Positions 3,244 to 29,890 of a stretch of DNA of 30,675 nucleotides are shown piece after piece. A program made the translations under genes and the position numbers. Within the stretch, counting starts at the first letter, position 1. Every line of letters starts with the position of its first letter. The stretch lies in IMG/VR virus record IMGVR_UViG_3300037487_000523, positions 1 to 30,675 of that record; one strand, 5' to 3'. The notes under the pieces are model-generated. The model was not told the DNA's origin. It saw only the letters and a list, made by a program, of their open reading frames with translations, and searched no databases. This stretch comes from a virus.

Positions 3244-5192
3244 TCTTGAATTATTGTAGCAGCATAACCGCCAACAGTGCCAGAATAAGCTGGCACGTAC
3301 CCAGGGAAAGGGCACAAAGAAAACGACCACGCTTTAATAGGAATAGTCAACCCCTTCGAGTCCGCGCCAATTGTGCGAATCATTACAGGCACATTTTCAA
3401 ATACGGCGCTCCCTATGACAACATTAACTAGAACGAAATCTCCAACATCAAGGAGCATTGCCCTCCAAGTCAATGTCATAGCAATCGTCTCGAACATAGC
3501 CGATGAAAGCCGGATAATTTCCTTCAAATTGTTTGTAACATCCGCCTCTACATATAGGTTTGGGAAGACCACCTTTTTAGAAATAGCTTTACCGACCTGA
3601 GTAATTGACGCCGCATTCTTAAAGATCGGTGTATTCGTTGAATTTTCATTCGTGTCTGGATGCAAGTCATAGGCGCCCTGTGCACGGTTAAAGTTATTTA
3701 TCTCGTCGATCTGTGGCGTAAAAGAATCCTTCACCACGTCCCAGTTTTTAACGTCAAAGGTCGGCGATGGTTGAAAGTCCTCGAAATGAAGCGAGTTTAT
3801 TTTGAGCAACTGGTCACGGCTAATGAAAGCCTCCAGCCGCACCTGCTCCATCATAGACAAGGCATAGGTAATCGCCTGTTGCGGTTCGGCAATCCAGACG
3901 CGAGACTTTATGCCCGCGATATTAGACTGAGCCGGTGAAGACTTGTCTCGGTACGTCGCCCAATTACCGTCGAAGTCGCCATCAACCAAGCCACCATAAG
4001 TTTTTAAAATATCTTTTGCCTGTGATACCAAATTATCGTCATATCCCGCAAGATTTTTCCCCTTGACTCTCACGAAGAAAATATCACCTGACTCGTATAA
4101 ATAAGCCGCTCCATTAAACCACAAATTAAGTGTGTTTTGTTCCACGTGGAACGTGCGGTTTCCAGCTCCAATAGTCGTAACGTCGGCCAGTGACACTCTG
4201 TAATAGAAATCCGAGCGACGCATCCAAACGTTGCTTGCGTCGAATGACACAAGATCATTAGCGGAGGTTAACAATTGCACGGCCTCACGCGCGGAAGTAG
4301 GATCTGCCACTATCGTATGAGAACCCGATTGCGTGCCAGATAGCACTATTGCCGCACCAAAGGGCGCCGCCGATAGCTGGAACGTATTTGTTGTGGCGTT
4401 CTTAATATAATATGTAGTCGCCACCACGACGCCGGTGGGAAGCGTTCCGCCAGTCTTTAATTGAACCGGATCGCCCTCGTCAAAAGCATGATTTGCGGAC
4501 TCAAAAAGTGACGGAGCAATAGTAATGTCTAAATCAACTTCTTTAAACGTGACGAAAGGGTCTCGTCCATTTGTAATAAAAGAAGTAACAATTGCGGGAT
4601 TCGGCGCAAGTGCCGTTGTGAAGTCGCCGTAAATAACCGGCTTCAATTTTCCTGCCACGTCGTCCTGGACTTTAGGAAACGCCGCTCGCGTAATGGCGTC
4701 GGTAGGAAAAGCAGCTGACAGCTTGTCGTATCGATCCCTTGATATGAGAGTAATAGATTTAACCGATCTTTTAACGCCGCCAACTTCGGTGATTGTGCCG
4801 GAATAAATCGTTTTGTAACTGGATTCGACTTCGGCTAGTCCAAGTTTGATGATAATGCTTTTTCCAACCCAGCTTCCGTAGTTGATTCCGGCGGGCATAA
4901 TATCATTAAATCTTCCGTCCGCATTCGATAGCTCAATGGTAAGTGTTGAGAAAGAAAGCTCAGGAGTGAGCCAATCTCCGACCGTGCGGTTAATAACAGG
5001 AAACACCAACAAAGCTTCATAAAATCTATTGCCGACATATTTATTCCTATCCGATGCGTAAATGGTGCCCGTTGGTGTTTCTATTTCAGCAACAACTTCA
5101 AGCTTACACTCAAGGTTATCGTGACACCAATCGAGTACCGTTTGAGTAAGTACATTCGAGGTTAAATATAATCGCCGATCTTTACCGCTCAT
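3240..5192 (-). CDS. Tail hub / baseplate-like tail-tip protein
   Basis: This 650-residue protein lies directly after the distal-tail-like gene in the position of siphophage tail hub proteins. The first 200 residues are beta-rich, with repeated short strands and 'SGTITEV', as in the barrel domains of baseplate hub proteins. Residues about 228-297 form an insert of a type common in phage tail proteins: an aromatic/His start (NHAF), 'GDPVQL', 'TTYYIKNA', 'NTFQLS' and 'GSHTI'. The C-terminal part (about 440-650) resumes hub-like alternation. There is no cell-wall hydrolase motif. The start ATG overlaps the stop of the 48-residue gene (ATGA), with GAGGA 9 bases upstream. Hub identity is inferred from order and fold-like pattern, not a catalytic motif. 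A parS-like palindrome lies inside the gene at about codons 348-351. Confidence 0.66.
   Translation of the reverse strand: MSGKDRRLYLTSNVLTQTVLDWCHDNLECKLEVVAEIETPTGTIYASDRNKYVGNRFYEALLVFPVINRTVGDWLTPELSFSTLTIELSNADGRFNDIMPAGINYGSWVGKSIIIKLGLAEVESSYKTIYSGTITEVGGVKRSVKSITLISRDRYDKLSAAFPTDAITRAAFPKVQDDVAGKLKPVIYGDFTTALAPNPAIVTSFITNGRDPFVTFKEVDLDITIAPSLFESANHAFDEGDPVQLKTGGTLPTGVVVATTYYIKNATTNTFQLSAAPFGAAIVLSGTQSGSHTIVADPTSAREAVQLLTSANDLVSFDASNVWMRRSDFYYRVSLADVTTIGAGNRTFHVEQNTLNLWFNGAAYLYESGDIFFVRVKGKNLAGYDDNLVSQAKDILKTYGGLVDGDFDGNWATYRDKSSPAQSNIAGIKSRVWIAEPQQAITYALSMMEQVRLEAFISRDQLLKINSLHFEDFQPSPTFDVKNWDVVKDSFTPQIDEINNFNRAQGAYDLHPDTNENSTNTPIFKNAASITQVGKAISKKVVFPNLYVEADVTNNLKEIIRLSSAMFETIAMTLTWRAMLLDVGDFVLVNVVIGSAVFENVPVMIRTIGADSKGLTIPIKAWSFSLCPFPGYVPAYSGTVGGYAATIIQE
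4139..4152. promoter_or_regulatory. parS-like: parS-like 14-bp palindrome
   Basis: The sequence GTTCCACGTGGAAC is a perfect 14-bp palindrome. It matches the chromosomal parS consensus (TGTTnCACGTGnAACA) over the whole core; the extended 16-mer differs at one end base. It lies inside the hub gene, where it encodes TFHVEQ-like residues, so it could also be a coding coincidence. A specific 14-mer is expected by chance well under once in 30 kb. No second copy was seen. The partner would be a host ParB; the ParB-like protein of this window has no recognisable DNA-binding helix-turn-helix. Confidence 0.5.
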
Positions 5193-5335: not shown

Positions 5336-6780
5336 AAGCTTTCGTCCACTTCTAGGTTAAATGAAACGTAATCGGCGTCCTCGGATATAACCTTATGCGT
5401 CTCGACTGGTATCTGTGTTAATTTGCCAAACACCGCAAAGCGTTCTGGGAATTGTGGCGTAGGAATCCATAGGCATTTGAGTGAAGTTCTAGCCGTTCTG
5501 AAAATGTTTCGGATATTTCGATAGTTTCCTTTTTGAAAATTAAGGAATTTAAACTCAAGTTGCGTTGAATACTTGAGCGCCCTATCGTTTGAAACGTTTG
5601 TGAATCCTTCGGTTTCGATCTTGTCGGAAAAGTGCTTAGTCCCTCGCTGTACTTGGTCGACGAAGCATTCTCCTTGAAATATAACAGACGGGCCAAAGAC
5701 GATCGTACCAATTTGCAGAGAGTCATTTGTGTTCGTAGAATCATTGATGATAAATCTCCAGTACCTAAATGACACTTGCGGCAATGTCGGAGCGATATAA
5801 TAAAGGTTAACGTCGTCAAGTACCTCAAGGTTTTCATCGAAGCCGATAGTCGCGAATCCAGCGTCATTTGACCCTTGGAATTGAACCGTCGCCGATCGTG
5901 TTAAGTTGTGATTTAACATGGCAAGCGTATCAAGAAAAACACCTTGAGCAATTTCAGTGTCGCATGTTAGCACGACCCCAGTTTTCACTCCAGAAACCGA
6001 GCGCCAGACTTGCTCGACAATATCCGTGTTCAAATTGTAAACCGAGAAATCTCCTGTTGCCGTAGAGCTTGCAGTCCAGTTCAAGCCGGTCGTCCCGCGA
6101 CTAGGGAAGTCGCATAGGATTCTAAGATTGTACGTGTTGTACAGCGTGAATAGGATCTGAGCGCCTTTGACCGTTATTTTTACGCGGTCAACTTGCATAA
6201 GAGCGGCATGTTGCGCGTCGATCTGTCTTTGTACTTGCGCCTTGAAATCTCGTGTGGTGGATATTTGGCGCTGTACTTGACCGTCAATAGGATGTTCCAC
6301 CGTATTAATACGATTAACCTGAGCGCCAAGAGTCACGCAAAAGGTTCTAACCAAGTAACCGAAAGTTAAATAGGCGTCCGTCAAGTAACCGGCGTCGTCG
6401 CATGTTGCATGCAGCAACTTCCCACGGTTAATTTCAGCGAGCTTTGTATACGTTGTACTAAGCAGTCTATTAATTTGTATTAAAGCATCATGCTCTGTTG
6501 ATGTATTTCTATTAATTTGCGCATTAATTTCTTTATAGCTATTAATTACTTCAGATATTTGTGTGCCCACATTATGAATAGAACTAACGTTTCTATTAAT
6601 TTGAACGTCTACGTTATGAATAGCCGCCGCAATTCTTTGAATTTGAGCGTTTACGTCGCGAGTCGAGTCAATCTGCCTTTTCACTTGAAACGGAAACGCA
6701 TACGTCGAGACACCCGCCCCGTAAGGATCATTTAAATACGGAAGATCTAGGTAGCCGTATGTCGTTACTGTTGCACTCAT
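5332..6780 (-). CDS. Distal tail-like protein with 14-residue repeats
   Basis: This 482-residue protein is encoded right after the tape measure (ATGA overlap), where siphophages place the distal tail protein. Residues 31-121 hold six and a half 14-residue repeats of the form xQ[IV][NQ]Rx[IVL][ST]Sx[HR]xxx, and residues 153-201 hold three and a half more in the same register. They are interrupted at 122-152 by a segment (GYLTDAYLTFGYL) that echoes the N-terminus (YGYLDLPYL). Residues about 225-380 look like a galactose-binding/discoidin-type beta-sandwich: 'DTLAMLNHNL', then 'VQFQGSNDAGF', then 'YYIAPTLPQVSFRYWRF'. The last 100 residues resemble the C-terminal domain of distal tail proteins (KFSDKIETEG, later 'CLWIPTPQFPERFAVFG'). 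It probably forms the ring at the tail end, with a possible carbohydrate-binding module. The fold assignments are inferred. Confidence 0.68.
   Translation of the reverse strand: MSATVTTYGYLDLPYLNDPYGAGVSTYAFPFQVKRQIDSTRDVNAQIQRIAAAIHNVDVQINRNVSSIHNVGTQISEVINSYKEINAQINRNTSTEHDALIQINRLLSTTYTKLAEINRGKLLHATCDDAGYLTDAYLTFGYLVRTFCVTLGAQVNRINTVEHPIDGQVQRQISTTRDFKAQVQRQIDAQHAALMQVDRVKITVKGAQILFTLYNTYNLRILCDFPSRGTTGLNWTASSTATGDFSVYNLNTDIVEQVWRSVSGVKTGVVLTCDTEIAQGVFLDTLAMLNHNLTRSATVQFQGSNDAGFATIGFDENLEVLDDVNLYYIAPTLPQVSFRYWRFIINDSTNTNDSLQIGTIVFGPSVIFQGECFVDQVQRGTKHFSDKIETEGFTNVSNDRALKYSTQLEFKFLNFQKGNYRNIRNIFRTARTSLKCLWIPTPQFPERFAVFGKLTQIPVETHKVISEDADYVSFNLEVDESL
6178..6690 (-). repeat. Tandem 42-bp coding repeats in distal tail-like gene
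   Basis: Nine full and two partial 14-residue (42-base) units lie in two blocks, 6418-6690 and 6178-6324, separated by 93 bases of different sequence. Units include VQINRNVSSIHNVG, AQINRNTSTEHDAL, AQVNRINTVEHPID and AQVQRQIDAQHAAL. The motif CAAATTAATAG recurs at the DNA level near 6476, 6511 and 6597 (read on the minus strand). The first block is more AT-rich than its flanks. Fourteen residues equal two heptads, so a trimeric coiled-coil or fibrous stalk is possible. Confidence 0.85.
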
Positions 6781-9700
6781 GCTCTAATTCCTTGCTGAAA
6801 TAACACGCGCTGGCCGTCAAGCGAGGCGCGACGTAGTTCCTCTTTAATTATTGGAACCATCGTACCACGGATAAACTTCTCATCAGGTGCGGTTTTCGCG
6901 TCAACTTTAATATCTATATTGTACACATTCGATGTATTGCCTTGTACCGAGGACGATCCAGTCTTATTCATTTGAGCCAACGTCCCCGAACCGATACCGT
7001 TCACCGCGCTACGTTGCATGACAAATTCACCGGCTTGACCGAGAATCGGCACGTCACCGGATCCGCCAATGATGCCGCCATCGTGGAATTTATTTTGTGC
7101 AAGCATTGCTGGTATCATCTCTTTTAGTACACGATCTTTCACCATTGCCCATAGTTGAGTCGGATCAAGCTTAGAAAGAAATTCCATCGCCTGTTGACCG
7201 GCACTCGCAATCGCGCCGCCCGCACTTTGAGCCGCTCCCTGTACTTGACCAACTATACCACCAAGAGCAAATTTTGGAGGCGTTATCGTGCCGTCAAGCA
7301 CACCGCGCACAAGGCCCGATAGAAATGGATCATTCATTTTAGAGCGCGGCACCACGGCCTCGCCTGGACTTATCATAGCCAGCACTCGGTCGTTCATTAA
7401 ACTGTCGCCGCCGACCACGGCGTTACCTGGAACCATTCCACCTTTTGCAAAATTCATAAACGGTACGTTGATACCAAGAGCAGATTCTACCGTGCCTTGA
7501 GGCGAAGGCGGAACTTTAAAAATCTTCTCGAAAAGATTACTAGGATTAATGGAATCAAACATATTCTTGAAAAAAGAACCTAAGCCCTCAATTCCGCTCC
7601 ATAAGCCCTGCCAAATCTGGTCGCCAAGTGTGTAGAAAAAGTCGCCCAGGTCTTGAAGCCCATCTGTTAGGCCATTCGAGATCGCGCTACCTATTTCGGA
7701 TAGCGTAGAAAACACACCTTCAAAGGCGGTAATGATCCCGTTAAAGATATCTTTAACCGCGCCGAACACGTCGCGGAACATCTGGACAACGCCGCTAAAA
7801 ACCTCTTTAACCGACGACATAATTTGATGCCAGACTTCGCCAAACCAAGTCATTAAGTCGCCGAAGCCTGATAGGATCTTGTGCCAAGCCTCGGATAGCC
7901 AGTCCTGTGCACGCTTGCCAGCTTCCTCGATAGCGGTGATTTGTTCTTTAGTCTTGTCCGCCGCGGCGGTATCAGCGCCAAGATCGACGACTTTAAATAG
8001 TTTTGACGCCTCGCCCGTCAGCGTTTGAGACGCCTTTTTCATGGACTCCGTAAATGACTTTGGATCGATGTCGATTTTTTGTTTCTTTTTCCCAAAGATA
8101 TTTGGCCCAAACATTCCTCCAACCGCCGCAGCAACTTGCTGAATGCCCTTAATAATACCGATCCAAATACCACGGACAGCCATGACAAGTGATTTTATAA
8201 TCGATACAATTATTCGCGGTATATTCCCAATTATTCCAGTGACGATGGCCACGGAAATTTCGACCGAACTTCCGATTAAACCTTGGATTAAAGTTTCAAA
8301 AATTTCAGGCAATCGTGCCCAAAGTTTCATAACCATATCAGGTACGCCCTTAAAAAACGCTATACTTGCTTGTGGAAGCTTTAATAACGCCGCGTCAATT
8401 ATGGTCATAAAAAGGTCTGGAATCATCTGAAAAAGACCAGGAATAAAATCCGTCGTAAACTGAACCATGCTTGTAACAATACCCTTTGCTGAACTGACTA
8501 TTTTCATCGGCAACTCTGCCGCAGTTTTAAAAATACCTGCAATGGCGTCCAATATTTTAGGGATGAAATCTATTATTCCTTGAACCACGCCAAGCAAAGT
8601 TTCTACCGCAGCCATGTAAACATTAGCAGTCCCAGCAAGTCCACTAGCGACACCGCTCATAGCGCCGACCGCGCCCTCCATAACGCCGCCCATTCCTCCT
8701 ACCGTTTTAGATAATACGCCGCCAAGATTTGAAACCGCAGCCTCGCCCGCTTGCTGGCCCTGTTCAAACTTAGCGGAAGGAGCTTTGGAAACCTCGATAT
8801 CATTCTTTTTATTCAGCAACTCGATTTGTTTTTCTAGCTCCTTGGTGCCGAGTGCGCCAAGTTCTCCGTCCTTAAATTTTAGCCTTAAGGCTTGTATTTC
8901 AAGTTGATTCTTTTGGTTCAAGTAGTCGATCGTTGTCATTTCAGAGCGACGGTTTTCTAAATCAAGGCTGGCGTTCTGTGCTCTAAGATCCTCGAAATTC
9001 TTAACGCGCAACTCCATTGCCTTTTTATCATCAGCCGACATAAGTGGAGCTGACTTTGGTCCGCTTTTTGGAAGTGCCGCGCCCAATTTCTCGGCGTCAG
9101 CGGCGCCACCCTTTAACTTGTCCAGCATCGTGCCAACTTCGGATATAGCCGTACCAGTTAATCCGGTATTAAGTCGGACTACACTGTCAGCGGTTTTCTG
9201 TGCGAGGCCGTCAAATAGTCCAAGGAAGTTTATTGCTTTGGTCGTTATGCCAAGTAGCTCCAAAATCCCTTGCCCTAAACTAATTACGCCTTGCGTGAAG
9301 TTTGCAAATATTAAAACCACGCCGCCGAACCCTGCAACAAGTAAATCAGCAAGACCTTGCATACTCGTTAAGTTTCTGACAAGGATTTCGATTGCCGCCG
9401 CAAGCGTCAAAACGCCAGCCGCAGCAAAAGCGTATCCAGCCAAGGATATTGTGAATGCCGTCGCCGCAGCCGTGGCAGCTTGTAAATATGTGATAACCGG
9501 TATTAGAGCGTTAACCAACATGCCAAATCCAGCCGTGCCTGCAAGTGCTGCAATCGTGGCTCCCAATCCTCCGAATACTATAATAGTTCCCGCTATGGAG
9601 AATCCCGCAAATAAACCAATTACGATTTTAAACTGAGATATAAAATCTCGCATATCTGCTGACATTTTTGCAAAATTAACTTCCGATAATGCTTTTGCAA

Positions 9701-10562
9701 ATCTTGAAACACTTTCACCCGTTCGAGGAACCGTATCAGCCATTTCTTTTATGACTGAAACAATAGACTTTAAACTATTGTTCAGTACTTTAGACGTTCC
9801 ATCAAGTCCTAAGAAATTAGAAATTAGCCTTCCGGTTTCCTCGCCAATGTCGCCCAATATATTTTTAAATTGCGCCATGGTTCCGGCGGAAGTAAATAAC
9901 TCGTTTTTAGCAAGGCCGCCTAAATTTTCTTGTAACCGTCTAACAGCCTCGCCAGTTTTCGCGAGCACGGGGTCCATTCCCGCTAATTCTGGAGCAAGAA
10001 TAGCAAGGCCCGCTACGTTACCCTTATAGCTTTTTAACAAAGCTTGAAAGGCAGAGTCCAAATCTCCTCGGCCCGTCGCCGCGAGATCCGCAGACACTTC
10101 AATCAATTGCTTAGATTTTTCTGCACTTAAACCGGAAGCCGTCGCAATATTTATCAACGCAATTGCATGGTCGTCCTCAACCGTAGTCGTATCTTGTAGT
10201 TGCTTTGCGAATTTCTTAAAATCCTCAACCGCACCGCGTACATCCTTTGACCCCATCTTTGCAAGCGTACCTGCGAGGCGAATAGCGCCGTCCTCTGACC
10301 TTCGAAACTCGCCGACTGTCGACTTAACCACGCCCTCAAAAGTATTGAATGCCTCACGCGCAATTGTGATCCCTGCCGAAACAGCGAGCATAGCAGCGCC
10401 GAAACTAGAAACCGTTTGGCTTGTCTGCTTAGACGACTTCGCCACGTCAACCATAGACATTTCAAGTCGACCTAATTGTTTCGCAAGTAGCGAAATCGAC
10501 TCGGATGCGTTGGCCGTATCGGCTTGAATCTTAATTAATAGGTCTTCTTTGGTTGTAGCCAC
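6777..10562 (-). CDS. Tape measure protein
   Basis: This 1261-residue protein sets tail length; at about 0.15 nm per residue it would give a tail near 190 nm. In order, it shows an N-terminal helical region with a Ser/Thr-rich 'AKSSKQTSQT', hydrophobic segments at about 310-395, and a charged coiled coil at about 505-600. A second run of hydrophobic segments lies at about 687-817. Trp/Phe residues recur about every 11 residues at about 885-1000, as in other tape measures. The C-terminal 'GQAGEFVMQR' near 1177 is typical of phage tape measures. It starts with GTG four bases after the chaperone T stop, with AAGGGA upstream, and its own stop overlaps the next start (ATGA). No peptidase or lysozyme motif is visible. 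Length, position after the frameshifted chaperones and these patterns make the call secure. Confidence 0.95.
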   Translation of the reverse strand: MATTKEDLLIKIQADTANASESISLLAKQLGRLEMSMVDVAKSSKQTSQTVSSFGAAMLAVSAGITIAREAFNTFEGVVKSTVGEFRRSEDGAIRLAGTLAKMGSKDVRGAVEDFKKFAKQLQDTTTVEDDHAIALINIATASGLSAEKSKQLIEVSADLAATGRGDLDSAFQALLKSYKGNVAGLAILAPELAGMDPVLAKTGEAVRRLQENLGGLAKNELFTSAGTMAQFKNILGDIGEETGRLISNFLGLDGTSKVLNNSLKSIVSVIKEMADTVPRTGESVSRFAKALSEVNFAKMSADMRDFISQFKIVIGLFAGFSIAGTIIVFGGLGATIAALAGTAGFGMLVNALIPVITYLQAATAAATAFTISLAGYAFAAAGVLTLAAAIEILVRNLTSMQGLADLLVAGFGGVVLIFANFTQGVISLGQGILELLGITTKAINFLGLFDGLAQKTADSVVRLNTGLTGTAISEVGTMLDKLKGGAADAEKLGAALPKSGPKSAPLMSADDKKAMELRVKNFEDLRAQNASLDLENRRSEMTTIDYLNQKNQLEIQALRLKFKDGELGALGTKELEKQIELLNKKNDIEVSKAPSAKFEQGQQAGEAAVSNLGGVLSKTVGGMGGVMEGAVGAMSGVASGLAGTANVYMAAVETLLGVVQGIIDFIPKILDAIAGIFKTAAELPMKIVSSAKGIVTSMVQFTTDFIPGLFQMIPDLFMTIIDAALLKLPQASIAFFKGVPDMVMKLWARLPEIFETLIQGLIGSSVEISVAIVTGIIGNIPRIIVSIIKSLVMAVRGIWIGIIKGIQQVAAAVGGMFGPNIFGKKKQKIDIDPKSFTESMKKASQTLTGEASKLFKVVDLGADTAAADKTKEQITAIEEAGKRAQDWLSEAWHKILSGFGDLMTWFGEVWHQIMSSVKEVFSGVVQMFRDVFGAVKDIFNGIITAFEGVFSTLSEIGSAISNGLTDGLQDLGDFFYTLGDQIWQGLWSGIEGLGSFFKNMFDSINPSNLFEKIFKVPPSPQGTVESALGINVPFMNFAKGGMVPGNAVVGGDSLMNDRVLAMISPGEAVVPRSKMNDPFLSGLVRGVLDGTITPPKFALGGIVGQVQGAAQSAGGAIASAGQQAMEFLSKLDPTQLWAMVKDRVLKEMIPAMLAQNKFHDGGIIGGSGDVPILGQAGEFVMQRSAVNGIGSGTLAQMNKTGSSSVQGNTSNVYNIDIKVDAKTAPDEKFIRGTMVPIIKEELRRASLDGQRVLFQQGIRA

Positions 10563-14973: not shown

Positions 14974-16460
14974 ACGAGATTCATCCCTTCGACGATAAAA
15001 CCGCTTCCGATTGAAAGGTTGTTGGCAGTCGAAATCAATTGAACACTGACAATTTGCTGCGTTGTGTTAGCCCACATGCCTTGCCCAACGTCGATGTTTG
15101 CAGCCGTTCCTACGGCTCCCGCCTCGGTCGCGGTGTTGATACTAACCATTTTTCGTTTTGTTGTAAAATTGGTCACGTTGGCAACGTATTGACGCCCTAA
15201 AACTACCGCTTGCGAAGCCATTCGCAAATAGCTAGTGCTTGTCGTCGGTACATCGGTGAAGTTGTTGCTTGCTCCAGAGTTTATACGCAAAAAACGAGTG
15301 TTATAATTGTTCCCAGAGTCTACCGCACCCGCCGTGCCACCAAATCTAAAACTAGCAATCCCTGTGCCAGAATATCCTGTCACAATCGCCGTCAATCTAA
15401 GCAAAGTCCGCGGCGGTATCGTCAATATAGAAGTCGCGTTGGCGGCAACAGTCAATTGTGTACGGCCTAATATCTGCCAAGACGATGATGGCGAACTAGA
15501 CGTGAAACCGTGACTGTGTGCAAGCGCCGTGGCGGACGTTGCCACAAAATTGTAGCAGGTTGTGTCCCATGTTATTGTAACCGAGTGGACGTGTGCCGTA
15601 CCTGATGACGTTGCGGAACTGTCTCGAACTACAGACGCAACTGTGCCAAGCATTAGTGAGCTTGCCTCAGCCCAAGTCAAATAAACAGTGTGGCCGTGAC
15701 TTCCAGGCAACAGATAAAACGTTACTGCAACATCAAATAAAGCGGCTACGGTTGTTTCTAACGTCGTGAGTGTCGGAGATGTACGCCAGGTTTGAGTTGA
15801 AGTCTCGTAACGTATAACGTCCTTATCGGTGGGAGTCAGGGCCACAACGTCATGCAATTCCGCAAGCTCATAACCGTTTTGAATCGAGACTTCAATTGTG
15901 CCAAATGTCGGGTGAGAGCGAGTGCACACGCCAACAAATACAATGTGCTGAGGAGGCACGGGCTTCGTCATTGTGATTTCGCCCGCGACCGTCGGGCTTA
16001 GATATAGAATGTTGCCTTCGGTTAATAAGTTCGTGTTTAAATTATCTAAAAGTCCCGCGTGAACTACAGTACCACTGCCTTGATCGTTTATATCGCTCAC
16101 CACTAGTCCGTAAGTCCGAGCACTTGCGGCATCACTATTACCCTGCGATAGCGCAATTGTCGGCAAAAAACCGTGGGAGCCGTCAATGTAAATGACCGAG
16201 CCTTTTATTATCGTAGCGCCTGACTGGTTATAAACTGTCGTCGTCAACCGGTCGGCTACGCTTGCAGTAAAAATCTCTTGCTGCCAGTTTTCACCTCCAG
16301 CCCCCGCCAATATTTTGACGAAACGTGCGGTATCCGTTTTCAAATATATACTGCCGACAGGAGCATCAAAAACAGGAGAGTCAGCGCCAGAAAATACTCC
16401 AGCGCCGCCTTCCATTACTACCCCGTCTTGAACTACTAATGATCTCGTAGAATCAGTCAC
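14970..16460 (-). CDS. Fibre / spike protein
   Basis: This 496-residue protein starts at GTG 16460 with GAGG 5 bases upstream. Residues about 30-62 carry 'APVGSIYLKTD' and 'GGENWQQEIF', also found in the next fibre gene upstream and probably an attachment module. Residues about 73-210 match a widespread phage fibre domain: 'NQSGATIIKGSVIYIDGS', then 'VVSDINDQGSGT', then 'EGNILYLSPTVAGEIT', then 'HIVFVGVC', ending 'YELAELHDV'. The remainder is Ser/Thr/Gly/Ala-rich with His-containing 'HVHSVTITW' and 'ALAHSHGF', typical of beta-structured fibre tips. The next gene, a likely partner, overlaps by ATGA. Its location after the capsid gene rather than at the tail tip suggests a head or neck fibre. 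Confidence 0.78.
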   Translation of the reverse strand: MTDSTRSLVVQDGVVMEGGAGVFSGADSPVFDAPVGSIYLKTDTARFVKILAGAGGENWQQEIFTASVADRLTTTVYNQSGATIIKGSVIYIDGSHGFLPTIALSQGNSDAASARTYGLVVSDINDQGSGTVVHAGLLDNLNTNLLTEGNILYLSPTVAGEITMTKPVPPQHIVFVGVCTRSHPTFGTIEVSIQNGYELAELHDVVALTPTDKDVIRYETSTQTWRTSPTLTTLETTVAALFDVAVTFYLLPGSHGHTVYLTWAEASSLMLGTVASVVRDSSATSSGTAHVHSVTITWDTTCYNFVATSATALAHSHGFTSSSPSSSWQILGRTQLTVAANATSILTIPPRTLLRLTAIVTGYSGTGIASFRFGGTAGAVDSGNNYNTRFLRINSGASNNFTDVPTTSTSYLRMASQAVVLGRQYVANVTNFTTKRKMVSINTATEAGAVGTAANIDVGQGMWANTTQQIVSVQLISTANNLSIGSGFIVEGMNLV

Positions 16461-28152: not shown

Positions 28153-28251
28153 TTATTTACGCCTCCAGATCGACGGCCTGTTATTCCAGATCTTAGATTC
28201 CATCTTCTCATAGCCCATGATTTTTAGAGCCTTTAAAAATAGCGTGCTCAT
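28153..28251 (-). CDS. 32-residue microprotein
   Basis: This short gene starts MSTLFLKALKIMGYEKMESK and ends in WRRK. The ATG overlaps the glycosyltransferase stop (ATGA), and the stop codon lies two bases before the next start, so it exactly fills an otherwise 100-base gap. The product is basic, with Trp residues at the end and an amphipathic helix at the front. It shares its 3' end with the ribosome site for the next gene, so it could also be a leader that couples translation. No family was recognised. Confidence comes from fit to its neighbours alone. Confidence 0.55.
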   Translation of the reverse strand: MSTLFLKALKIMGYEKMESKIWNNRPSIWRRK

Positions 28252-29117
28252 ACTTTTCGTTCCGTGATTAGCATGTTGTAGTTATTAACTTTATTCTCAA
28301 CCTCAACTCCGTCACGGCGGATGAGTCCATTCTTTTTAAAACCAGTATAGTCTACGTGATGATGCCAGCGTCCGAACTTAAATACTATTTCCGACACGTC
28401 CGGGTGCATAGCTACCTGCATTTTAGATTTCGGCATCGTGCCGTCTTTAGCGTAAAAGTCTTTCGTGTTCCCGCCCTTAATCGTTTGAGTCGGCGACTTG
28501 AGTTGAAGGAAAGCGTTGAACTGAACCGTACACCAATTAGCTTTAAGCATATTTAGCGACAGGTCTGTATCCTCGTTATAGCGCCCACGCCACCGAAACG
28601 GCACGTCATTCCTAATTAAGTTACAGGAATATATCCGAGTGTTCGTAACGAACGGCGGCTGTTTTACTTTCCTTGGGACGAACATCTCGTAGTTCGGGCC
28701 AGCCATCGCTACGTTTTTATACCGTAGGCAGAAATCCTCCATGCACCGAAAGATCGTACCGTCACCGACACGTAAAATTATGTTGTCATTAAACCGAGAA
28801 AACTGTCGGATATTATCGTCCATTACCCAGTGCCACGGAGCGCCGATAGAAATAGAATGATCCCATGCGAAATTACGAGCAGCGCCCGGCCCTTTACTTT
28901 TAGTGTCGCCGAGATCGTCGAAGGTGTCGTATTCCCTCTGATACTTTTTATCTAAGATCAAAATTTTCTTCGGATCGATAACCGCCGAATAGTCTTTATA
29001 TTCTTGTTCCTCAATAACAATAAAATACGGAGTGTTCATCCGCTCTAGCGCCTTACTCGTTAGCCGAGTATCGGAGCGACCTTTCGACACGATATATAAC
29101 GGGAATCTAGGATTCAC
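28248..29117 (-). CDS. TET-associated glycosyltransferase-like protein
   Basis: This 289-residue protein has the full pattern of TET-associated glycosyltransferases found in phages: 'PLYIVSKGRSDTRLTSKALE' at the start, 'WHWVMDDNIRQF' at about 95-106 with the acidic pair D100/D101, 'RIYSCNLIRNDVPFRWRGRY' at about 161-180, 'NEDTDLSL' and 'WHHHVDY' at about 251-257. Such enzymes are expected to add a sugar to hydroxymethyl-cytosine made by a TET-type oxygenase, protecting phage DNA. It begins with GTG at 29117, overlapping the ParB-like gene by 11 bases, with GGAG upstream. No TET oxygenase or methyltransferase lies in the window. Family membership is from remembered motifs; activity is inferred. 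Confidence 0.85.
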   Translation of the reverse strand: MNPRFPLYIVSKGRSDTRLTSKALERMNTPYFIVIEEQEYKDYSAVIDPKKILILDKKYQREYDTFDDLGDTKSKGPGAARNFAWDHSISIGAPWHWVMDDNIRQFSRFNDNIILRVGDGTIFRCMEDFCLRYKNVAMAGPNYEMFVPRKVKQPPFVTNTRIYSCNLIRNDVPFRWRGRYNEDTDLSLNMLKANWCTVQFNAFLQLKSPTQTIKGGNTKDFYAKDGTMPKSKMQVAMHPDVSEIVFKFGRWHHHVDYTGFKKNGLIRRDGVEVENKVNNYNMLITERKV

Positions 29118-29727
29118 TAACTACGTCCACTCCGGTGGTCGATACTATCTCGGCCTTCGGATACCAAATAGATTTTGTTTTATCCGTAATATTTTGCTGT
29201 ACCAATTCCGCGAATGCTCGCACGTCGTCGTTATTAGCGAAGGTAACGATGAGTTGACGCACACCGCTAATGTCCTCGTTGGCGAACTCAGGCATATCCT
29301 CCCACTCTTTCTCAGGGTCGGTACCGTTCTCGTTCTTCGTGCCTATAATATCCAGAGCCGATAGGTCGAAGCCGATCTCTCCAAGGTCGAAGCCGTCTTC
29401 TCGCAGAGCTTGCAGCGTGGAGCCGAGAATCATTTCATTCCATGTTCCCATGGTTCCAATTTGGTTGTCGGCAATTGAATATGCCGTAGCATCAAATTTA
29501 TCTAAAGACGTGACGACGCAATCGATATGCGTCCAGCCTAATTGTCGAGCAGCTTCAAGCCGACAATTACCAGCGATAACGATATCTTTAACGTCTATAA
29601 TGATTGGCAACTGCTGATTAAACTTCTTTAAAGATCCCTTAATAGCCTTTAAATTCTTTTCATCATGCTTGCGAGCATTGTTAGGATCATTGTATAGTTC
29701 AGATATCTTCCTTGAAATCACTTCCAT
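29107..29727 (-). CDS. ParB/Srx-like domain protein
   Basis: This 206-residue protein starts MEVISRKISELYNDPNNARK. The N-terminal 90 residues are the ParB/sulfiredoxin-like domain: 'QQLPIIIDVKDIVIAGNCRL' (about 38-57), 'EAARQLGWTHIDC' and 'ADNQIG'. The motif GNCRLEAA takes the place of the GxxR motif of this fold. The second half is unassigned, ending in 'KSIWYPKAEIVSTTG'. No helix-turn-helix DNA-binding domain is visible, unlike chromosome-partitioning ParB. Proteins of this sort lie next to glycosyltransferase-like genes in phages with modified DNA. An upstream ATG (29760) gives a longer form; the chosen ATG at 29727 begins the conserved domain. Confidence 0.82.
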   Translation of the reverse strand: MEVISRKISELYNDPNNARKHDEKNLKAIKGSLKKFNQQLPIIIDVKDIVIAGNCRLEAARQLGWTHIDCVVTSLDKFDATAYSIADNQIGTMGTWNEMILGSTLQALREDGFDLGEIGFDLSALDIIGTKNENGTDPEKEWEDMPEFANEDISGVRQLIVTFANNDDVRAFAELVQQNITDKTKSIWYPKAEIVSTTGVDVVSES

Positions 29728-29890
29728 GACTGTTATCTTTCTGATAAATCCTTTTATCATTTATATTATCTTCAGGCGTTGTATTAGAATCTTCTACAAC
29801 ACCCTCCTCTTGAACATAGAATATTTTATCGAAGTTGTCACGATACTCTTTAGAAGCAATAAAGTTCCTGTTCGTGTCGGCTTTGGTCAT
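29699..29890 (-). CDS. Small acidic protein, unknown
   Basis: This 63-residue protein starts MTKADTNRNFIASKEYRDNF and is rich in Asp, Asn, Glu and Lys with a low-complexity polar C-terminus, so probably disordered. GAGGTGG lies upstream of the ATG, which overlaps the preceding stop (ATGA). Its end overlaps the ParB-like gene by 29 bases. No family, metal site or membrane segment was recognised. It may assist the neighbouring DNA-modification genes, but nothing in the sequence shows this. Confidence 0.6.
   Translation of the reverse strand: MTKADTNRNFIASKEYRDNFDKIFYVQEEGVVEDSNTTPEDNINDKRIYQKDNSHGSDFKEDI

Follow-up and report, generated by a model that had tools for sequence, protein, structure and literature searches.

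A parS-like palindrome in a phage tail-hub gene is probably a lineage-specific coincidence, and chromosomal-type parS words are in excess in viral contigs

Does a virus that carries a near-perfect copy of the bacterial chromosomal parS site use it to recruit the ParB of its host, or can such a copy arise in coding DNA by coincidence? The question is raised by an IMG/VR virus record, a fragment of 30,675 bases analysed here as one window, in which the perfect 14-bp palindrome GTTCCACGTGGAAC lies at positions 4139-4152, exactly where the initial annotation had recognised a parS core. The enclosing 16-mer agrees with the parS consensus at 15 of 16 bases (Table 1). Its one departure, which had also been placed at an end base, is the last base, and the CACGTG core is intact, so that the word falls within the tolerated deviation that defines a chromosomal-type parS. 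Tolerance of such an end mismatch, implied in the annotation, is borne out by parS1 and parS4 of Pseudomonas aeruginosa (TGTTCCACGTGGAACC), which contain the same 14-bp palindrome with CACGTG intact, deviate at that terminal position too and are bound by ParB slightly less well than perfect sites (PMC4368675). Unlike bacterial chromosomal parS, the viral word is located in a phage tail-hub gene instead of near oriC, is present as a single copy and is not conserved. Further copies, for which the annotation had suggested searching, are absent: the whole record contains no second word within two mismatches of the consensus.

Table 1. Features of the 30,675-base window discussed in the text
Feature	Position	Strand	Basis or remark
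parS-like 16-mer TGTTCCACGTGGAACG	4138..4153	.	one end mismatch against the consensus TGTTNCACGTGNAACA
Tail-tip or baseplate hub gene, 650 aa	3240..5192	-	ORF; AlphaFold model; Foldseek; VIA-align
Tape measure gene	6777..10562		
18-bp perfect palindrome GTTAAAGATATCTTTAAC	7740..7757		inside the tape measure gene
TET-associated glycosyltransferase gene	28248..29117		
217-aa protein, ParB_N-like fold (phrog_620)	29107..29760	-	ParB_N below the Pfam cut-off

The annotation further held that chance would not be expected to produce a match of this length in 30 kb. This is sound when a single motif and a single window are considered: under an order-3 Markov model of the record, the exact 14-mer is expected 0.00013 times, and 16-mers differing from the consensus at no more than one base 0.0047 times. 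The statement ignores the number of motifs and windows screened, and once these are allowed for the match is no longer unusual. The length of the palindrome is by itself ordinary; about 1.9 perfect palindromes of at least 14 bp are expected in random sequence of 30,675 bases, and two are present. The palindrome inside the tape measure gene, for which the chance expectation is about 0.12, is longer than the parS-like one.

On the minus strand, the word is read as ACG TTC CAC GTG GAA CAA, encoding TFHVEQ (residues 347-352 of the 650-aa protein) on a predicted strand of the hub domain. The label of hub gene given in the annotation is correct, because the AlphaFold model of the protein matches the tail hubs of T5, lambda and T4. 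The model, made from 55 homologues, has a mean pLDDT of 91.7. Its top Foldseek match is the T5 tail-tip protein 7zqp_b (E 4e-17), and VIA-align yields Z scores of 18.1 with the lambda tail tip, 15-16 with T5 (over 482-487 residues) and 12 with T4 gp27. The predicted fold agrees with those of the T5 tail tip (7zqp), the lambda tail tip (8iyk) and T4 gp27 (1k28) over 300-487 residues, although sequence identity to these hubs is only about 7-14% and, unlike them, the protein contains an inserted domain of ~80 aa (residues about 217-299). The gene is also downstream of the tape measure gene, and thus both its fold and its place are those of a tail-tip or baseplate hub; no Pfam family matches the 650-aa protein. 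The ~80-aa insert is missing from many hub relatives and matches tail fibre domains (phrog_9370, phrog_30390) as well as Rhizobium phage tail proteins. In the whole 30,675-base record, no Rfam families or tRNAs were detected, and the similarity of its terminase reaches only distant cultured phages.

An alignment search of viral contigs recovered 67 hub loci, which gave 66 aligned rows, some of them near-duplicates, at 41-67% identity; no relative was detected when the hub alignment was searched against genome contigs. The palindrome is kept in none of the 66 homologous hub genes. Mismatches to the 14-mer most commonly number 7-8 of 14, the best row (L385) has three, and the nearest relative (L382, 67% identity) has five, with the codons ACG TTC GAG GTG CGC CAG. 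The pattern that the annotation had offered as the mark of a functional site, a palindrome preserved while synonymous neighbours vary, is therefore not what the homologues display. At the protein level, the F and Q of TFHVEQ are conserved, being the fixed ends of the pattern F-x-[V/I/L]-x-Q that the family keeps on one strand; H and E fill its two variable positions. The His and Glu that form the palindrome are unique to this protein, relatives having E/K/R/Q/T and K/R/A/Q there. The exact peptide is likewise retained in 0/66 homologues; therefore, palindrome and peptide changed together. Relatives that keep the peptide and lose the palindrome had been named as evidence against function: the loss is complete in all 66, but strictly that combination does not occur, as TFHVEQ is also gone in all of them.

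No perfect parS occurs in 43 relative records (~1.6 Mb), which contain five one-mismatch words in four records at unrelated positions; those in L382, L394 and L395 are all inside genes, and the fifth is in the L399 record. Seven relative records contain no word within two mismatches. In L382, a core-intact one-mismatch word (TGTTTCACGTGACACA, 6655-6670) is found within the gene immediately upstream of the hub gene and may be a chance occurrence. The word TGTTTCACGGGAAACA is found in two different genes of L394 (1266-1281 and 4668-4683) and also at 4725-4740 in L395; the L394 word at 4668-4683 is the one common to L395, in the tape measure gene.

These results lead us to regard the palindrome as probably an unselected, lineage-specific coincidence in hub coding sequence, to which host ParB might still bind. 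As the alignment shows, the conserved F-x-[V/I/L]-x-Q pattern supplies TTC, often GTN, and CA(A/G); in this lineage the two variable positions came to be occupied by His and Glu, which completes TTC CAC GTG GAA C. A canonical chromosomal ParB, if the host has one, could bind and load at the word, judging from the published P. aeruginosa data, because the core is intact and the end mismatch is tolerated. Selection for ParB binding is not visible, given the loss in all relatives and the class test described below. A coincidence is supported by that loss, by the lack of perfect parS in the 43 relative records, by the single copy, by the absence of ParA and HTH_ParB genes, by a reading-frame class (FHVE) near chance and by other long palindromes in genes of the same record. 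Counting against it are the rarity of the word a priori in one window (0.005), a roughly 5-fold abundance over baseline of words with a C-end mismatch, and the small counts in the FHVE frame. The functional reading that the annotation gave to this copy is not supported, on four points, namely the homologues, the copy number, the missing ParABS genes and a FHVE class without clear excess. The word instead illustrates how coding DNA can come to contain a perfect match to a known site; homologue loss, flank class and reading frame are the tests that tell such a match from a selected one.

The alternative that survives best is that the word is a phage-borne, host-type parS which, in a phage without its own ParB, recruits the chromosomal ParB of the host; we consider this possible but unlikely. 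ParB would load there as a CTP clamp and spread over neighbouring phage DNA, with changed DNA positioning, SMC loading, titration of host ParB or altered local transcription as the outcome. Agreement at 15 of 16 bases around an intact CACGTG, with an end mismatch known to be bound in P. aeruginosa (PMC4368675), is consistent with such a role, and SGI1 provides a proven precedent for parS theft. Its 'stolen' parS, present in two copies, hijacks the IncC ParABS system, with proven binding and effects on stability (PMC10954446). SGI1 is therefore a model for this alternative, being a mobile element with the parS of another replicon and without its own ParB (PMC10954446), although it hijacks a plasmid system rather than a chromosomal one. 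Against a host-type parS at this locus stand its loss in 66/66 homologues, its single copy, its FHVE frame in a gene interior and the absence of perfect parS elsewhere in the phage group of the record.

Host-type parS in phages is also supported by a survey of IMG/VR. The perfect 16-mer TGTTCCACGTGGAACA is found in at least 120 stretches, compared with 11 for a control palindrome matched in base composition (TGTTCGACGTCGAACA) and one for a control matched in dinucleotide content (TTGTCCACGTGGACAA), an excess of at least 11- to 120-fold in viral contigs. One-end-mismatch words also occur in at least 120 stretches; a two-mismatch control count is meaningless, as the control motif is itself within two mismatches of parS. 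Among the matches listed, the sites are mostly non-redundant (294 sites in 232 clusters) and are depleted in ORFs, with 62% inside an ORF compared with 90% of random positions. Where parS words differ among themselves, the consensus has a degenerate N. None of the 45 long records that contain a perfect site among the matches listed encodes HTH_ParB, and a lack of an own HTH-bearing ParB is thus shared by the present record and 45/45 of these viral records. Cultured phages that carry such words likewise have no detectable ParB. The sites lie in IMG/VR loci L009-L299 (e.g. L111, L092, L105, L173 and L139); a further parS word is at 16412-16427 of MN698241.1.

Bacterial-chromosome contamination was considered as the whole cause of this excess and rejected. 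Firstly, 8 of the 20 ORFs adjoining perfect sites match PHROGs, seven of these with named phage functions (10 of the other 12 were searched in Pfam and gave no match). Secondly, a phrog_2-type terminase is encoded in 16 of the 45 long parS-bearing records among the matches listed. Finally, among seven cultured or complete phage records reached through similarity in capsid or terminase, the Alcaligenes phage vB_Af_QDWS535 (OK172329.1) has a perfect site at 47934-47949 and Pelagibacter phage HTVC027P has a one-end-mismatch site. Contamination may contribute to the excess but, for these reasons, is not the whole story. Five loci of pelagiphage-like contigs (HTVC023P group; L111, L139, L167, L176 and L177) carry pairs of TGTTTCACGTGAAACA and TGTTCCACGTGGAACA 23-24 bp apart; the L111 pair lies at 310-349, and the pairs of L111 and L139 are upstream of a terminase gene.

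Maintenance of parS by descent within one phage group was also rejected. In the L092 group, only one of 80 capsid relatives has a perfect site, and that one is the seed itself, so the sites are sporadic. Real phage parS sites can accordingly be non-conserved as well, a point that counts against reading the hub word as a coincidence.

Flanking bases and reading frame distinguish selected words from others. In an unbiased sample of IMG/VR 14-mer matches (121 sites; interior words being those in ORFs of at least 300 aa and 60 nt or more beyond the start), perfect words in ORF interiors encode VPRGT in 18 of 19 cases, and words without T/A flanks in the same ORF class divide 3:4:3 among the three frames. 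VPRGT-frame words number 18 with TT flanks versus three with non-T flanks. Selection for VPRGT as a peptide is ruled out by its rarity outside parS words (once in 1.2 million aa), and therefore the DNA, not the peptide, is under selection. The FHVE frame, to which the hub word belongs, behaves differently: its interior words in the unbiased sample, small in number, comprise one TT, no CT, two GT, one AT and three non-T, with no clear excess over chance. A larger C-flank set, scaled by a ~5.7-fold larger collection share (from 21 to about 120 sites), contains five FHVE interior words, an estimated ~1.3 times the chance rate with a wide error. Across all contexts, words with one C-end mismatch number 10.5 versus 2.0 per flank combination, ~5-fold over the non-T baseline, so that a real site has a non-negligible prior. 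Words with G flanks are mostly GSTWN, a peptide motif, and their excess was rejected as a parS signal.

Taken across viral contigs, the survey makes it likely that many ParB-less phages carry chromosomal-type parS under DNA-level selection and use it to exploit host ParB. This pattern lends strength to the broader suggestion in the initial annotation that phages may turn host ParB to their own use by way of parS, with SGI1 as a proven analogue (PMC10954446). The excess resides in perfect, intergenic or VPRGT-frame words, and we rejected it as direct support for the hub-gene word, whose membership in this class is doubtful. No report of phage-borne chromosomal-type parS was found in the open-access papers searched, and the pattern offers a testable case for phage recruitment of host ParB. 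Such recruitment would link phage biology to chromosome segregation and SMC loading, and would mean that phages steal the chromosome-segregation machinery much as SGI1 steals that of a plasmid.

Considerably less probable is that a different DNA-binding protein uses the word or that TFHVEQ itself is selected. An operator role is possible in some phages because the palindrome adjoins promoters in several phage contigs, including five copies in L173, but the 30,675-base record has no second copy with which to form an operator set. Conservation of F and Q is consistent with selection on the peptide, but H and E are unique to this record and both positions vary in relatives. The five perfect words of L173 (at 4324, 6308, 8135, 9161 and 10442) are mostly intergenic and often precede a similar promoter-like stretch, TGCTACG(A/C)TGTA, so that the palindrome could serve there as an operator or as a promoter element regulated by ParB. 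The same contig encodes a WhiB-like protein.

The weakest proposal, that the word acts as centromere for a phage-plasmid that itself encodes a ParABS system, is highly improbable despite the ParB_N-like protein encoded in the record: that protein has no HTH_ParB, no ParA (PF13614) above the cut-off and no HTH_ParB (PF17762) were found in the fragment or in 29 long relatives, the word lies 25 kb from the ParB_N-like gene, and iterated sites near parAB are missing, as it is the only word within two mismatches in 30.7 kb. HTH_ParB is the domain that reads parS, and the 217-aa protein was accordingly rejected as a cognate ParB on account of the absence of PF17762 from the record. In phages, ParB folds frequently occur as fusions with other domains and seldom belong to segregation systems (PMC12704722), and together with the missing HTH_ParB and ParA genes here and in relatives this leaves the phage-plasmid segregation suggested in the annotation unsupported. 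The 217-aa protein resembles the phage ParB-CTPase-fold proteins without HTH (PMC12704722; phrog_620), which have no parS-reading domain, and there is no reason to tie it to the palindrome. Its gene adjoins that of the TET-associated glycosyltransferase, an arrangement that suggests a DNA-modification module.
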